Of a stretch of DNA of 5,617 nucleotides, positions 1 through 5,617 are shown in pieces (position 1 is the stretch's first letter; every line of letters begins with the position of its first letter). The notes beneath the pieces were generated by a model, which searched no databases, was not told the origin of the DNA, and saw nothing but the letters and a program-made list of their open reading frames with translations. The stretch lies in the NCBI GenBank assembly GCA_024679635.1, contig JAIBDA010000087.1:1-5617 (forward strand), in the 5' to 3' direction. This DNA is from Amphritea sp. Lineage in GTDB: Bacteria; Pseudomonadota; Gammaproteobacteria; Pseudomonadales; Nitrincolaceae. The translations under genes were made by a program, and so were the position numbers.

Positions 1-776
1 ACACTCAAGCCCCAGCTTTCAGCCCGTTGCTGGCTGGCCTGTCGGAAGCGTTCACGAACCTCAGTTCCCGCAGGTTTGGTCAGGTAAAATAGCAGCGTAC
101 TGGCTTTTTCAGGGCTCAGATTTTGTTCTTCTCCCCAGCTCTGCATAAACGCTACCAGAGTATTATCACTCTTGTCTTCCAACGCCACAGGGACTTCTAA
201 CGAGAGATCTTCCCCGGCACGAACACGGCGACAGATAACCTGATAGTTATAACGAAAGTCTGGAAAAATACGCTCTTCATTTTCACTGCGCAGGCGGAAC
301 CAGCCAGTAGCTTTACCCGCATGATAAAGCGCTACATGAGTCCAGTCATGCTGTGTTGGATGGTCGGCGTAGCGGCAAACCTCTTCGTAGGCAATTCTCG
401 CCGGAGGCAGTCCGAAGTCGCCACTTTGTTCATTGAGGATGGTCAGAAATTCAGAGATGGTTGGCATCCACGCCAGGGTTTCTTTACAGCGATTAATCGC
501 TGACACCATTTCCGCTTCACCATAGCCCTGAATACTCAGAGCCCATTCGCGTTTAGCGATACGAATTTCATCCTGAGTTTCAAAACAACTCTTAAACTTA
601 TGCCCATAAATCGCCATAAAACGGGCAAAAATCATATTAACCAGAGTTTTAGTTTCAGTGGTAATGATTGCCGCTTCAGCCGCAGCGTCAGGACTACCAG
701 TCGGTGTCCTTGATGTCCATGATGGCTGCGGTAACCCGCTTGCGCTTTTCCCTATTATCTGGCCGGGCGTTTTCAT
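1..776 (-). CDS. dopE: Lambda P-like replicative helicase loader candidate (DopE-like), 3' end cut by window
   Basis: Reading the minus strand from the ATG at 776 gives 258 codons without a stop up to the left edge, so the C-terminus is missing. Residues 45-190 resemble phage lambda replication protein P. W78 lies in a KREWAL segment like P's RRQWVL. Residues 96-111 (RCKETLAWMPTISEFL) match the P segment before its WC, and 143-165 (HDWTHVALYHAGK...) match its HYWLV region. Lambda P binds DnaB and delivers it to the origin with O, so the expected role is loading the replicative helicase on chromosomal DNA. Residues 1-45 are low in complexity (Pro/Ser/Thr/Ala) and probably disordered. The start is chosen because an AAAGGTG Shine-Dalgarno sits 6 bases upstream and because starting at the next ATG (codon 48) would remove the first helix of the P-like region. 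The gene overlaps the upstream dopC-like gene by 83 bases in another frame. At over 258 residues it is already longer than lambda P (about 233). The symbol follows the proposed domesticated lambda P family, recalled from literature and not checked here. Confidence 0.75.
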   Translation of the reverse strand, partial: MKTPGQIIGKSASGLPQPSWTSRTPTGSPDAAAEAAIITTETKTLVNMIFARFMAIYGHKFKSCFETQDEIRIAKREWALSIQGYGEAEMVSAINRCKETLAWMPTISEFLTILNEQSGDFGLPPARIAYEEVCRYADHPTQHDWTHVALYHAGKATGWFRLRSENEERIFPDFRYNYQVICRRVRAGEDLSLEVPVALEDKSDNTLVAFMQSWGEEQNLSPEKASTLLFYLTKPAGTEVRERFRQASQQRAESWGLS

Positions 777-1617
777 GGCTTACACCTTTATTAGTACCTG
801 CGTCTGCCCGCTTTTTACGAGCATCACGTGTCTGTTTATTAACCCACTCCCGCTTTACCCAAGCAAGAAATTTCTGATCCCAATTCGACTCTTTGCGGTC
901 TTTATCCAGCCAATAGAGCACAAATTCATCCAGCAACTGGTCAGCAAAGTCAGCAGGAATACTGTGACGGGGCAGCATATCTAACAGCGTCTGAGAGGGA
1001 CGCCAACCCAGAAACATTGCATGCAGTTTCTGATTCTTCTTCTCAATTTCATTCAATCGTGTCGCAAAATCATTTTCCGATGTTGTCTCACAACTGGGCG
1101 TAATCTGACGACTTTTTGACCAGCCAATACTGCCGCCAAAGGTTGGCGCCGGGCCTAATTTTCTAGGTTGTGCCTGGTGTACCCGACGACTGATTTCACT
1201 CCGTTCCGGTGGCTGCTCGACTACTTGCAGGTCCTGAACGATGACAGGTGCGATATGCTCAGGCACATGGGTTCCATCCTGAGTATAGCCTTGTGAAGCC
1301 CCCTGGTATTCAGCCGCCGTTTGCGTGCTGACAAGGGTGACTTTTATCGCACCACCGTGACCAAAGGACGCATGGACATACCCCTGTGTAACCAGACTAT
1401 TAGTCACTATGGCCAGCTGATCTTCATCCCAGAAGTTCGCCAGCGCTAACCACTCATCTCGGCTAAGCACCGCGGAAGGCTGGCCGGACCGGTCTGGCAG
1501 GCCATGCAGCTGAATATACTCATGATACAACGCCAGAAGAATCGCTTCATCGGAGCCTACCGTACGAGCCAGAGAAGGGTAAAACAGTACGGGTTTTTCC
1601 GGAAAGCGGAAGCTCAT
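694..1617 (-). CDS. dopC: DnaT-like / lambda O-like replication protein (DopC-like)
   Basis: A 307-residue protein. Residues 1-95 look like a winged-helix N-terminal domain of the primosomal/phage replication type: FYPSLART, then a Leu/Ala-rich helix, then a DEWLALANFWDEDQL helix, ending in a beta hairpin around 80-96. Residues 100-180 are a Gln/Pro/Ser-rich linker. Residues 184-203 are charged and may form a short coiled coil. Residues 204-262 match the C-terminal single-strand-DNA-binding domain of DnaT (GWRPS..., PADFADQLLDEFVLYW, NWDQKFLAWVKREW). A Lys/Arg-rich tail follows (262-294). The likely role is DNA or origin binding during primosome assembly or helicase loading, acting with the lambda P-like protein encoded immediately downstream. 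The start has a modest TGGAA Shine-Dalgarno 6 bases upstream. The last 83 bases also encode the N-terminus of the next gene. The DnaT-like domain is clear; equating the gene with dopC rests on its pairing with the P-like gene. Many databases would call it only a DnaT-like ssDNA-binding protein. Confidence 0.75.
   Translation of the reverse strand: MSFRFPEKPVLFYPSLARTVGSDEAILLALYHEYIQLHGLPDRSGQPSAVLSRDEWLALANFWDEDQLAIVTNSLVTQGYVHASFGHGGAIKVTLVSTQTAAEYQGASQGYTQDGTHVPEHIAPVIVQDLQVVEQPPERSEISRRVHQAQPRKLGPAPTFGGSIGWSKSRQITPSCETTSENDFATRLNEIEKKNQKLHAMFLGWRPSQTLLDMLPRHSIPADFADQLLDEFVLYWLDKDRKESNWDQKFLAWVKREWVNKQTRDARKKRADAGTNKGVSHENARPDNREKRKRVTAAIMDIKDTDW
783..789 (-). promoter_or_regulatory. Ribosome binding site that sets the dopE-like start
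   Basis: AAAGGTG on the minus strand, 6 bases before the ATG at 776. It lies inside the dopC-like reading frame (codons for Lys-Gly-Val near residue 278). It supports a start well inside the upstream gene rather than after its stop at 694, and suggests translation of the two proteins is linked. Confidence 0.6.
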
Positions 1618-1746: not shown

Positions 1747-2154
1747 TCAGCCGTCTTGTGCGAACTGCTCTACTGCACGCAGTACATCACGGCGACTGAT
1801 CTGGCCGATCAGTTTACCATTTTTTACTACCGGCAAGCGACGTCTTCCGTTGTTAATAAATTCTTCAGCCACAGAAATAATATCGGCATCATGGGCGATG
1901 GTGTAAACCTCAGGCGACATGTAATCACCAACCCGACCACCCATCTCTTCCTCATGATAGGTCAGCGTTAATATTGCTTTCAGGCAATCGGCCTCAGATA
2001 ACAAGCCCACCAGCTCACCCTCCTTACTTATAACAGGAGCACCGGTGATACGGTATTTAAGTAGTAAATTGATCGCTTCGAACAGATCAGTTTCAGGGGT
2101 AAAGGTTATCAGCTTCTCAGCCATGTAATCGCTGGCTTTAACAGATCGCAGCAT
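1747..2154 (-). CDS. Small protein made of two CBS domains
   Basis: A 135-residue protein that is almost entirely a CBS pair (Bateman module). CBS1 spans about residues 8-65 and CBS2 about 77-130. Each repeat has the usual hydrophobic segment (ITGAPVI at 36-42, RRRLPVV at 104-110) and the ending motif with Ser and Asp that commonly contacts the ribose of a bound nucleotide (GLLSEAD, S53/D56; GQISRRD, S120/D123). No enzyme, membrane or DNA-binding domain is attached, so it is probably a cytoplasmic stand-alone sensor that binds an adenine nucleotide (AMP, ADP, ATP or similar) and acts on an unknown partner. A strong GGAGGA ribosome binding site lies 6 bases before the ATG (2161-2166), which fixes the start. 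It sits 127 bases after purU and 129 bases before the dopC-like gene on the same strand, so it could be co-transcribed with either. Ligand and partner cannot be read from the sequence. Confidence 0.88.
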   Translation of the reverse strand: MLRSVKASDYMAEKLITFTPETDLFEAINLLLKYRITGAPVISKEGELVGLLSEADCLKAILTLTYHEEEMGGRVGDYMSPEVYTIAHDADIISVAEEFINNGRRRLPVVKNGKLIGQISRRDVLRAVEQFAQDG

Positions 2155-2281: not shown

Positions 2282-3136
2282 TTAGTTAAAAACCACGGTT
2301 TTATTCCCATGTACCAACACCCGGTCATCAAGATGCCAGCGCAATCCACGGGACAAAACAGTTTTCTCAACATCCTTACCCAAACGAACCATCTCTTCAG
2401 GCTGGTCCCGGTGACTAACGCGCACCACATCCTGATCGATGATCGGCCCGGCATCCAGCTCTTCCGTCACATAGTGACAGGTGGCACCGATAAGCTTCAC
2501 GCCTCGATCATGGGCCTGATGATAAGGCTTTGCACCGGCAAAAGAGGGCAAAAAACTATGGTGTATATTGATGATTTTATGTCGATATAGATCGCAAACA
2601 CTGCTCGGCAAAATCTGCATATAGCGCGCCAGCACAATAGTTTCTGCCTGATGCTCTACGATCAGCTGGTGTACTTTATCAAAGTGAGGCTGCTTATCCT
2701 CTTTATCCACAGGCACATGGTAATAAGGAATCCCGTGCCATTCCACCATGCTGCGCAGGTCATCATGGTTAGAGATCACACAAGGGATCTCACAATCCAG
2801 TTCACCTTCATGGTAACGGTATAGTAAGTCAGCCAGACAATGGGAGTCTTTACTTGCCATCAACACCACTTTTTTAGGCGTTTCAGAATCAGTTATTTCC
2901 CACTGCATATTAAATGACTGGGCAATAGGCGTGAACTGCTCGATCAACTGTTCACGACTAAAACTCACCGAGGCAGAGACGATCTCTACCCGCATAAAAA
3001 ACCAGCCGTTTGAGCTATCGGAGTGCTGATTAGCGTCAGCAATAGAGCCGCCATGACTGGAGATAAAATTACTTACCATTGCAACAATGCCCAAGCGATC
3101 CGGGCAAGCCAATACCAGTCTGAATCTGCGTTCCAT
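2282..3136 (-). CDS. purU: Formyltetrahydrofolate deformylase PurU
   Basis: A 284-residue protein, the usual length for PurU. It hydrolyses 10-formyltetrahydrofolate to tetrahydrofolate and formate in the cytoplasm, balancing the one-carbon pool and supplying formate to PurT-type purine synthesis. Residues 5-83 form an ACT regulatory domain (LVLACPDRLGIVAMVSNFI..., HGGSIADANQH), which in the E. coli enzyme responds to glycine and methionine. Residues 87-280 are the formyltransferase-fold catalytic domain, with SNHDDL at 122-127, the NIHHSFLPSFAGAKPYHQA signature at 190-208 (catalytic Asn and His region), and the catalytic Asp in ELDAGPII (D228). All key residues are intact. The ATG at 3136 has a GAAGGG Shine-Dalgarno 4-5 bases upstream (3141-3146), and the ACT domain begins straight after it. 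The gene is first in the leftward group and divergent from the phosphorylase operon. No glycine-riboswitch-like structure was recognised in the short leader. Confidence 0.96.
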   Translation of the reverse strand: MERRFRLVLACPDRLGIVAMVSNFISSHGGSIADANQHSDSSNGWFFMRVEIVSASVSFSREQLIEQFTPIAQSFNMQWEITDSETPKKVVLMASKDSHCLADLLYRYHEGELDCEIPCVISNHDDLRSMVEWHGIPYYHVPVDKEDKQPHFDKVHQLIVEHQAETIVLARYMQILPSSVCDLYRHKIINIHHSFLPSFAGAKPYHQAHDRGVKLIGATCHYVTEELDAGPIIDQDVVRVSHRDQPEEMVRLGKDVEKTVLSRGLRWHLDDRVLVHGNKTVVFN

Positions 3137-3385: not shown

Positions 3386-4915
3386 ATGATTTCAACCCCC
3401 GAACGAGCGACAACACTGCAGGCACGGAGACTGGGAATTGATACCCGTCAGGAGCCAATCATCTACCTACGGGCAGACAGCCCGGTCTGCCGTTCAGAAG
3501 GATTCTCCGCTCTATCCCGGGTATTAGTACATACCGAACACAATAAGATCATCGCAACACTGAATATAATTACCGGAGAGATGCTTCGCCGTGGGCAGAT
3601 TGGTTTTTCTGAATCCGCCTGGCATCGGCTCCATCTGAACACCGACGATAACGTTTGGTTATCTCACCCAAGACCCGTACAGTCACTCTCCCATGTACGC
3701 TCAAAAGTTTACGGACACCAGCTCAATAAGCAGCAATTTCAGGAAATCATCAACGATATCGTCGACGGTCGCTATGCTGATGTTCATATCGCCGCTTTCA
3801 TTACTGCCTGTGGTGACGACAAGCTCAACGACACCGAGATAACTGCGCTAACCCAGGCGATGATCGATTCGGGTAGCCGTATCGACTGGGAACAGCCCCT
3901 GGTTATTGATAAGCACTGCGTTGGGGGGCTGCCAGGTAATCGCACCACCCCTATTGTTGTCTCTATCCTGGCCGCCAGCGGCCTGACCATGCCGAAAACA
4001 TCATCCCGGGCGATTACCTCGCCAGCCGGCACCGCTGACACCATGGAGACTATGACCGACGTCAGCCTGACACTGGAACAGATGAAACAGGTGGTCAAAC
4101 AGGAAGGCGCCTGTCTCGCCTGGGGTGGTTCAGTACGATTAAGCCCCTCCGATGACATTCTTATACAGGTTGAACGGGCGCTGGATATTGATAGCGAAGG
4201 CCAGTTGATCGCCTCAGTACTCTCGAAAAAAATAGCCGCAGGGGCAACCCATGTGCTTATAGATATCCCGGTCGGCCCGACAGCAAAGGTGAGATCTCAG
4301 GAAGCCGCAGATAAACTGGCAAACTCTTTTATGACTGTCAGTGAACGACTGGGAATCAAGGTTCAGATTCTCTATACCGACGGTAGCCAACCGGTCGGCA
4401 ACGGCATCGGCCCGACGCTTGAGGCTAAAGACGTCATGGCGGTATTACAAAATGACACCGATGCTCCCCAGGACCTGAAACAGCGAGCGCTGACCATGGC
4501 AGGTGCCATGTTAGAGATGTCGGGTACCGTAACTGCAGAAACAGGCATAGAGAAAGCCACGACTATTCTGGAAACAGGGCTGGCATGGAAAAAATTCGCG
4601 GCTATCTGTAACGCTCAGGGCGGCATAAAACAGCCCGGTGAAGCCCCCTACCTGTTTAAGCTCATGGCTGAAGAAAAAGGTTATGTTGCGTCGATTGATA
4701 ACCGTCTTCTGGCGCAGGTAGCCAAGTTGGCCGGCGCCCCTATGGACCTGACAGCAGGCGTCGAAATACACGCCAAGCTCGATCAACTGGTTCATCCTCA
4801 AGACCCATTATTCACTATCCACGCTGAAAGCTCTGGCGAACTCAACTATGCGGTCGACTTTTTAGAAAGTCATCCGGAGATTATCTGCCTGACCACTGAG
4901 GTATCTGATACATGA
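3386..4915 (+). CDS. AMP phosphorylase-type thymidine phosphorylase family protein
   Basis: A 509-residue protein of the archaeal-type (type 2) thymidine phosphorylase/AMP phosphorylase family, similar in length to archaeal AMP phosphorylases (about 500) and longer than classical DeoA (about 440). Residues 10-95 form the extra N-terminal domain typical of this subfamily. Residues 105-170 are the helical domain. Then come the phosphate-binding stretch DKHCVGGLPGN (175-185) and the KTSSRAITSPAGTAD signature (204-218). Classical DeoA has KMSGRGLGHTGGT at that place, so this copy has the AMP-phosphorylase form. GPTAKVRS (298-304) and DGSQPVGNGIGP (332-343) follow, with a C-terminal alpha/beta domain after about 400. 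The expected reaction is nucleotide (AMP, perhaps CMP/UMP) plus phosphate to base plus ribose 1,5-bisphosphate; activity on nucleosides is the alternative. The ATG at 3386 has AGGGAG upstream. The stop overlaps the start of the PRPP synthase gene (ATGA), which argues for one pathway. Databases often label such proteins only as putative thymidine phosphorylase. Confidence 0.88.
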   Translation: MISTPERATTLQARRLGIDTRQEPIIYLRADSPVCRSEGFSALSRVLVHTEHNKIIATLNIITGEMLRRGQIGFSESAWHRLHLNTDDNVWLSHPRPVQSLSHVRSKVYGHQLNKQQFQEIINDIVDGRYADVHIAAFITACGDDKLNDTEITALTQAMIDSGSRIDWEQPLVIDKHCVGGLPGNRTTPIVVSILAASGLTMPKTSSRAITSPAGTADTMETMTDVSLTLEQMKQVVKQEGACLAWGGSVRLSPSDDILIQVERALDIDSEGQLIASVLSKKIAAGATHVLIDIPVGPTAKVRSQEAADKLANSFMTVSERLGIKVQILYTDGSQPVGNGIGPTLEAKDVMAVLQNDTDAPQDLKQRALTMAGAMLEMSGTVTAETGIEKATTILETGLAWKKFAAICNAQGGIKQPGEAPYLFKLMAEEKGYVASIDNRLLAQVAKLAGAPMDLTAGVEIHAKLDQLVHPQDPLFTIHAESSGELNYAVDFLESHPEIICLTTEVSDT

Positions 4916-5617
4916 AAACTATTCTGATCAATCTGGAATCTGATCCTGTTCTGGAAGCCCAGTTATGCGATGAACTCGGCGCCCGCAGAGGGGAACTGGA
5001 ACTTCGCCGCTTTCCGGATCAGGAGACCTATCTGCGGGTTATAACCGAATGCGAAGACCGCAATGTAGTAATTCTGTGTAACCTTTATCAGCCCGATAAC
5101 AAAATCCTCAGGCTCCTGCTGCTGGCCACTACACTGCGCGAGATGGGGGCAAAAAAGATCGGGCTAATCACCCCCTACCTGGCCTACATGCGTCAGGATA
5201 AGCAGTTTCATGATGGCGAATCTGTTAGCTCCCGCCCCTTTGCCAAACTGATCTCCGAACATCTCGACTTTCTGGTCACCGTCGACCCACACCTACACCG
5301 TTACAAAAAACTTGATGAAATCTACAATATTCCTTCCAGCGTGGTACATGCCGCACCACTGATTGCCAGCTGGATCAAAGAACATATTCAAAACCCACTG
5401 CTAATCGGCCCCGATAGCGAAAGCGAACAGTGGGTTTCTGAGGTTGCTAAACTCGCTGACGCTCCCTTCCAGGTACTCAGTAAAACCCGGCTGGGGGACT
5501 ATGATGTAGAGGTCACTCTGCCGGACGTCGAACGCTGGCTAAACCATACGCCGGTACTGGTCGATGACATTATCTCCAGTGGTCGCACCATGATGGAAAC
5601 GGTCATCCATTTGAAAG
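4912..5617 (+). CDS. Ribose-phosphate pyrophosphokinase-like protein (PRPP synthase), 3' end cut by window
   Basis: 235 codons from the ATG at 4912 are visible and the C-terminus lies beyond the edge. PRPP synthases transfer pyrophosphate from ATP to C1 of ribose 5-phosphate, giving PRPP and AMP. Visible family motifs in order are: RFPDQE (33-38) in place of the usual FPDGE; PYLAYMRQDKQF (88-99), the ATP-binding RQD segment; SSRPFAKL (107-113); VDPHLHR (124-130), where canonical enzymes have a DLH motif; the flexible-loop catalytic pair K191/R193 in SKTRLGDYDVEV; and the ribose-phosphate loop VLVDDIISSGRTM (216-227), usually VDD..DTGGT. Short spacing and the KTRLGD loop make it closer to archaeal/class III enzymes than to the housekeeping bacterial Prs of about 315 residues, so it is probably a second, specialised copy. 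It starts within the stop of the phosphorylase gene (ATGA), with TGAGGT 9 bases upstream, so the two are translationally coupled. Catalytic residues look intact; substrate preference is unproven. Confidence 0.88.
   Translation, partial: MKTILINLESDPVLEAQLCDELGARRGELELRRFPDQETYLRVITECEDRNVVILCNLYQPDNKILRLLLLATTLREMGAKKIGLITPYLAYMRQDKQFHDGESVSSRPFAKLISEHLDFLVTVDPHLHRYKKLDEIYNIPSSVVHAAPLIASWIKEHIQNPLLIGPDSESEQWVSEVAKLADAPFQVLSKTRLGDYDVEVTLPDVERWLNHTPVLVDDIISSGRTMMETVIHLK

Follow-up and report, generated by a model that had tools for sequence, protein, structure and literature searches.

Loading of the replicative helicase onto DNA is a need of every bacterium. In Escherichia coli, the genes for the relevant proteins stand in the order dnaT–dnaC, and the DnaT domain of DnaT is a single-stranded DNA-binding domain. 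Bacillus subtilis uses DnaD, DnaB and DnaI, that is, a winged-helix co-loader plus a loader, and in phage lambda the O gene carries an iteron array within it. Adjacent domesticated O/P-like genes (DopCE) were reportedly found by Brezellec et al. in 2017 in gammaproteobacteria without DciA and DnaC/I. Three papers (PMC13326638, PMC10201434 and PMC6784150) cite this DopCE proposal, and what the preliminary description of the present DNA said of it was therefore right in substance. As far as could be found, this third class of loader has so far been proposed only from genome comparison.

The DNA analyzed here, referred to as the window, is a stretch of 5,617 nucleotides from an Amphritea sp. that contains a gene pair belonging to DopCE. 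The second gene is of the lambda P family, an O-like/DnaT-like gene lies directly upstream of it, and nothing tested here contradicts membership. It is very probable, in our assessment, that dopC–dopE is a domesticated phage replication module that acts as a resident DnaB-loading system, an idea that genome comparison backs strongly, if only by inference. At the level of sequence, the comparison shows common descent of DopE and phage P proteins, vertical fixation of the pair, exclusivity with DciA, absence of dciA from its usual site and a changed docking helix in DnaB. On this reading, DopE would bind and load DnaB, and dopCE may be essential.

The dopC–dopE gene pair and its encoded proteins

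The dopE gene occupies 1..776 on the reverse strand, starting from an ATG at 776 and continuing for 258 codons without a stop until it runs off the left edge of the window. Its product matches the Pfam family Phage_lambda_P (PF06992; E = 1e-12, residues 45–192) and a P-like helicase loader in PHROGs (E = 2e-24), and these profile searches confirm the lambda P-like partner that the preliminary description had noticed. Residues 196–258 (3..191, reverse strand) make up a C-terminal extension, recognized by alignment, which is conserved, contains the motif LLFYLTKP.G and lies outside the part aligned with lambda P. The upstream gene, dopC (694..1617, reverse strand), is an open reading frame (ORF) of 307 amino acids with an ATG start, encoding a predicted winged helix, a low-confidence linker, a DnaT domain and a conserved C-terminal tail. 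The 3′ end of dopC and the 5′ end of dopE overlap by 83 nt (694..776, reverse strand), a segment that codes for both the conserved DopC tail and the start of DopE, and the two genes are probably translationally coupled. A Shine–Dalgarno-like word precedes dopE in 25 of 67 relatives. Between positions 1 and 2300 of the window, five promoters and two terminators were called, against 2.7 and 2.4 in shuffled sequences.

The preliminary description had presented DopC as a DnaT/O-like protein with a winged helix at its N-terminus, and this characterization holds in part. The DnaT domain is clear, as PF17948 matches residues 200–264 (826..1020, reverse strand) with an E value of 6e-22 and 77.6 bits against a cut-off of 25. 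The winged helix is predicted by a structure model for residues 1–97 (1327..1617, reverse strand), with a mean pLDDT above 90 over residues 11–90 in the single-chain prediction (pTM of the single-chain models was 0.38 for DopC and 0.44 for DopE). This domain is without a Pfam match, and its best structural neighbors are plasmid Rep initiators. The O-like label is apt only for gene order and for the C-terminal half, where two PHROGs families of 'replication initiation protein' match (E = 8e-8 and 6e-5), whereas phage O families were absent from the N-terminus in Pfam to E = 1 and in NCBIfam to E = 0.1; the models sought were TIGR01610 and Phage_rep_O, whose accession we take to be PF04492.

Neither protein of the pair matched any NCBIfam model. 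An AAA+ match (PF01695) was likewise absent from DopC and DopE in Pfam and NCBIfam, as was a DciA match (PF05258) in Pfam, and sequence searches of PDB chains with the DopE profile and with DopC gave nothing at E up to 1. No iteron array was found in dopC, short repeats of two copies being all that was seen between 620 and 1760 of the window. Across lineages, the number of DnaT domains per DopC ranges from one to four. Two such domains are encoded at L193:6861-7637, three at both L170:8260-9513 and L178:4273-5526, and four at L186:6204-7547; the ORF in the dopC position at L175:7940-8395 encodes a DnaT-only protein of 152 amino acids without a winged helix.

Neighborhood, inheritance and phage relatives

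To the right of the pair, the window contains genes for a CBS-domain protein (1747..2154, reverse strand; PF00571), a purU-type formyltransferase (2282..3136, reverse strand; PF00551), a thymidine/AMP-phosphorylase-type enzyme (3386..4915, forward strand; PF02885/PF00591/PF07831) and a PRPP-synthetase-type enzyme that runs off the window (4912..5616, forward strand; PF13793/PF00156). Their Pfam domains agree with the earlier reading of these neighbors as host genes. The phosphorylase-type and synthetase-type genes (3386–5616) share a 4-nt overlap and are transcribed divergently from purU; conserved near dopCE, they likely form a nucleotide-salvage operon.

A scan of genome contigs yielded 67 loci with a DopE relative at 53–95% identity, mostly from Amphritea, Neptuniibacter, Marinobacterium, Pontibacterium, Nitrincola, Neptunomonas, Motiliproteus and Aliamphritea; NCBI taxonomy places Amphritea in the Oceanospirillales, Oceanospirillaceae. 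The closest relatives, at 95% identity, come from two Amphritea metagenome-assembled genomes (MAGs), one of which is L002. In 54 and 56 of the 67 relatives, respectively, the CBS-domain gene and purU are located upstream of dopE at a distance of up to 10 kb, and the phosphorylase-type and synthetase-type genes are each found in 55. At least one of these four neighbors is within 10 kb of dopE in 65 of 67 loci and all four are in 44; the two loci lacking host neighbors (L011 and L016) are ones where the contig ends. Adjacency of dopC and dopE is universal (67/67), with dopC running off the contig in L011 and L016 and interrupted in L022, and the overlap measures 83 nt in 60 loci, 86 in four and 89 in one, with none in two (L022 and L019). 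In L022, from Aliamphritea spongicola, dopC is open over its last part only. Since that assembly also has lpxC and secA each divided between two frames, the broken dopC suggests sequencing errors and not gene decay.

Beyond dopE, in L002 and four other relatives, the encoded domains are of GGDEF, DUF3549, DUF1538, P-II, response-regulator and peptidoglycan-binding types, and none of the nine proteins scanned in these five relatives has a phage domain. Phage genes just left of the window, which the preliminary description had named as grounds for abandoning its reading, were looked for in relatives, and host-type proteins were found. Of four relatives tried, two Amphritea relatives allowed dN/dS to be calculated for dopC and dopE alike, and the ratios were 0.023 and 0.052 for dopE, 0.052 and 0.088 for dopC outside the overlap, and 0.024 and 0.033 for purU, values that are rough as dS (0.9–1.7) is near saturation. 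Both dopC and dopE are under strong purifying selection, and they are therefore not a chance pair of ORFs. Moreover, the distances of dopE, dopC and purU are correlated (Mantel r 0.80–0.86, p = 0.001; 54 of the 67 loci plus the window), as expected for vertical inheritance. The pair is resident, vertically inherited and located outside mobile elements.

With respect to phage relatives, the nearest GenBank phage P proteins share 24–32% identity with DopE, and the two best IMG/VR matches share 32% (residues 1–232) and 37% (residues 45–203). Relatives of DopC in IMG/VR came from four loci and covered the C-terminal region with the DnaT domain. A tblastn search with DopC against 50,697 phage records gave none at 1e-5, and positions 1–2300 of the window had no match to phages at the DNA level. 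In a tree that included 40 of 48 non-redundant viral P proteins, 73 chromosomal DopE proteins group with one viral protein (L318), apart from 39 of the 40 viral P proteins (SH-aLRT 94), which is consistent with a single domestication followed by vertical descent. In 8 of 80 viral P loci, the DopC profile matches a gene upstream of P, and loci of this kind are a plausible source of dopC–dopE.

Loader distribution and the DnaB docking helix

No DciA was detected in the genomes of 49 relatives (the 67 loci less 17, all of them MAG contigs, and less L009), either by PF05258 at E = 0.1 or by a custom profile made from 20 DciA proteins of the same order. The sensitivity of the custom profile is real, since it recovered DciA in 16 of 25 order genomes in which PF05258 had failed. 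Among six DciA genomes examined, dciA is beside lpxC in five; L285 (G294) is a DciA genome in which dciA is placed elsewhere. In DopE relatives, secA (identified by Pfam) begins 185–217 bp after lpxC with no DciA match in 10 of 10 cases; among the lpxC–secA loci, part of lpxC is masked in L298, and frame breaks split both genes in L297.

Matches to PF01695 (DnaC/DnaI/IstB) occur weakly in every one of the 49 genomes, and judging by the lengths of their frames and by which part of the profile they match, these weak matches are probably DnaA or Lon. Seven stronger matches were named by profile, and six strong ones are IS21 IstB helpers. In L075 (Marinobacterium ramblicola), whose genome has dopCE as well, a DnaC-like AAA+ loader comes after a phage-type O gene. 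G314 has a PF01695 match scoring like that of L075, and the matches also include further copies and fragments. On this classification of PF01695 matches, no resident DnaC/I was found among the relatives' genomes. The relatives thus carry the pair in genomes in which dciA and a resident dnaC/dnaI were not found, as in the DopCE proposal. A dciA or dnaC gene combined with sporadic presence of the pair was the other sign that the preliminary description would have held against itself, and among the relatives DciA was missing in both searches while dopC stood beside dopE throughout.

A wider sample comprised 293 genomes from the order of Neptuniibacter PT1. DopE was detected here with a profile of 48 DopE sequences; PF06992 alone was rejected as a genome detector, having failed to pick up the G001 DopE despite its 66% identity to that of the window, and PF05258 alone was rejected for DciA, having left 25 order genomes with neither system. 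The DopE profile matched in 180 genomes and the DopC profile in 178, both together in 176, and DciA was present in 107 (91 by Pfam plus 16 by the custom profile, which was applied to the 25 genomes with neither system and to the 49 relatives rather than to all 293). No genome had all three. This distribution supports the suggestion in the preliminary description that the pair may be a domesticated helicase-loading system; Fisher tests performed on it are uncorrected for kinship.

At the order level, dopC adjoins dopE in 58 of 59 loci opened, the exception being G064. That genome, like G150 and G274, has DciA and a lone P-like match without DopC, which in G064 appears, when read by eye, to be an O/P-like remnant with ORFs resembling transposases and integrases close by. 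Two further genomes (G177 and G220) have DciA and a DopC-profile match without DopE. Neither the complete pair nor DciA was found in 10 of 293 genomes, including G251, which has DopE alone; some of the 10 are small, and others may hold a further type of loader.

Among the matches listed, 10 of 43 DopE genomes have dopE and dnaB no more than 25 kb apart (in four of the 10, the two starts are at most 1.5 kb from each other), compared with 0 of 50 DciA genomes for dciA and dnaB (p = 2e-4 for the difference in linkage, uncorrected for kinship). The linkage of dopE to dnaB was not seen in the window's own family. In several genomes of the order the distance is about 1 kb or less, as at L178:2173-5526 and L195:5930-9911, where the two genes are convergent, and in G138 and G245.

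In terms of DnaB itself, loaders are described as sharing a site, the module of linker helix and docking helix (PMC9912922). The same paper, citing Marsin 2021, gives one docking-helix residue as Ser where a species has DciA and as Gly where it has DnaC/I. Comparison of the E. coli and V. cholerae proteins would place this residue at E. coli DnaB 299. We aligned DnaB from 50 DopE and 47 DciA genomes over 451 columns (3 of 100 genomes, all of the DciA class, gave no DnaB ORF by motif; an extra sample took 60 of 71 genomes with a match, 9 of 80 being without one). Positions 296, 303 and 299 are the top three of the 451 columns for loader class, and all are within the docking helix. Position 296 is K in 44 of 50 DopE genomes (R is kept in the other 6) versus R in 46 of 47 DciA genomes. 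At 299, S is found in 44 of 47 DciA genomes, and the DopE genomes have A (16), T (14), S (13) or others (7); at 303, L is found in 37 of 47 DciA genomes, and the DopE genomes have M (17), K (15), R (6) or others.

When windows of the alignment are scored by the mean of their three best columns, 11 of 434 score as high as the docking helix, which is the number that hold all three columns, and the best window elsewhere in DnaB reaches 0.45 versus 0.56 at the docking helix; averaging over all columns puts the docking-helix window at rank 14 of 434. With the sequences clustered at 80% identity, K occupies 296 in 26 of 32 DopE clusters, and all 15 DciA clusters have R there. In a local contrast, five DopE genomes all have K296 and their eleven DciA sisters all have R296, S299 and L303, so that the change is clear at 296 and 303, with S299 lost in just one of the five. 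Loader class changes three times on the DnaB tree, and the docking-helix signal thus derives from few independent events. Given this signature, DciA and DopE presumably use the same docking site on DnaB. A more speculative possibility, which we put forward tentatively, is that the loader swap scarred the docking helix, from W-P-R-x-x-S-A-V-x-L to W-P-K-x-x-[A/T/S]-A-V-x-[M/K/R], such that helicase and loader would form a matched pair, and that DopC joins one to four DnaT modules to an origin-binding winged helix of Rep/DnaD type, making one phage-derived pair for both oriC initiation and fork restart.

Competing explanations and comparison with known systems

The homology of DopE to phage P, the viral P loci with a DopC-type gene upstream and the existence in the order of a prophage-like O/P remnant (L168, close to ORFs that by eye resemble transposase and integrase genes) could all be taken to mean that dopCE is what remains of a cryptic prophage, preserved by chance or for phage-related needs, while the chromosome uses an unrecognized loader or none. 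We consider this highly improbable, as host genes flank the pair in all relatives except the two at contig ends, the flank proteins scanned beyond dopE include no phage gene, dN/dS is 0.02–0.09, the pair and DciA exclude one another across the 293 genomes, and GenBank phage P proteins come no nearer to DopE than the identities given above. Less credible still is a role for DopE as an inhibitor or regulator of DnaB, like SPP1 G39P in its inhibitory role, and not as a loader; DopE matches lambda P over a greater length, across both domains, and searches of the relatives turned up no further resident loader.

DnaT acts in restart in E. coli, and DopC has the DnaT domain PF17948, in up to four repeats in other lineages. 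DopCE might on these grounds be a DnaT/PriA-type module for replication restart, with loading at oriC achieved by direct contact between DnaA and DnaB. This is somewhat less far-fetched than the preceding alternatives but still unlikely, since a restart-only module would hardly be expected to replace DciA, and the changes in DnaB fall at a general loader site. DopCE is, moreover, exclusive with DciA, a protein that P. aeruginosa requires for initiation according to one study (PMC5109545).

The favored reading, a resident DnaB-loading system of phage descent, suggests the following mechanism. The lambda-P-type helical domains of DopE would grip the module of linker helix and docking helix of the DnaB hexamer, break open the ring without help from an AAA+ ATPase and deliver DnaB to single-stranded DNA, as lambda P does. 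DopC would bring the DopE–DnaB complex to its site by means of its DNA-binding winged helix and DnaT domain or domains, the site being oriC opened by DnaA and perhaps also restarting forks. Gain of dopCE may have made DciA dispensable, with dciA then lost from the lpxC–secA locus.

If true, a phage-derived pair stands in for the usual bacterial loader in a large group of marine bacteria. What seems to be new here, as far as limited literature listings tell, is the signature in the docking helix, the empty lpxC–secA site, the dnaB linkage and the range of one to four DnaT copies. One later paper mentions DopE by name in a single sentence. No published tests of DopE were found in a limited literature search that covered titles and the starts of abstracts, with most subscription papers outside it. 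The data supply named culturable relatives, three DnaB residues to swap and genomes with dopCE next to dnaB, and the use of a phage loader as the cell's own, together with adaptation of the helicase, is therefore directly testable.

Compared with lambda P, DopE has PF06992 and the same two helical domains, and DnaB binding is expected of it; it differs in its identity of just 14–16% in structural alignments, its C-terminal extension, its chromosomal location and its vertical inheritance. DopC resembles lambda O in lying directly upstream of the P gene and in having a DNA-binding-type N-terminal domain followed by another domain, but it is without a phage O family match in Pfam and NCBIfam, lacks iterons and has a DnaT domain at its C-terminus. 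As in the E. coli DnaT–DnaC arrangement, a DnaT-domain protein accompanies a DnaB loader, although DopE is of the P family and, unlike DnaC, not AAA+. The B. subtilis system shares with DopCE the combination of winged-helix co-loader and loader, and one order-level DopC matches a DnaD-like PHROG (E = 3e-5); DnaI is, however, AAA+, and DopC has a DnaT domain in place of the DnaD C-terminal domain. Finally, DciA and DopE presumably serve the same function, yet they are unrelated in sequence and mutually exclusive in distribution.
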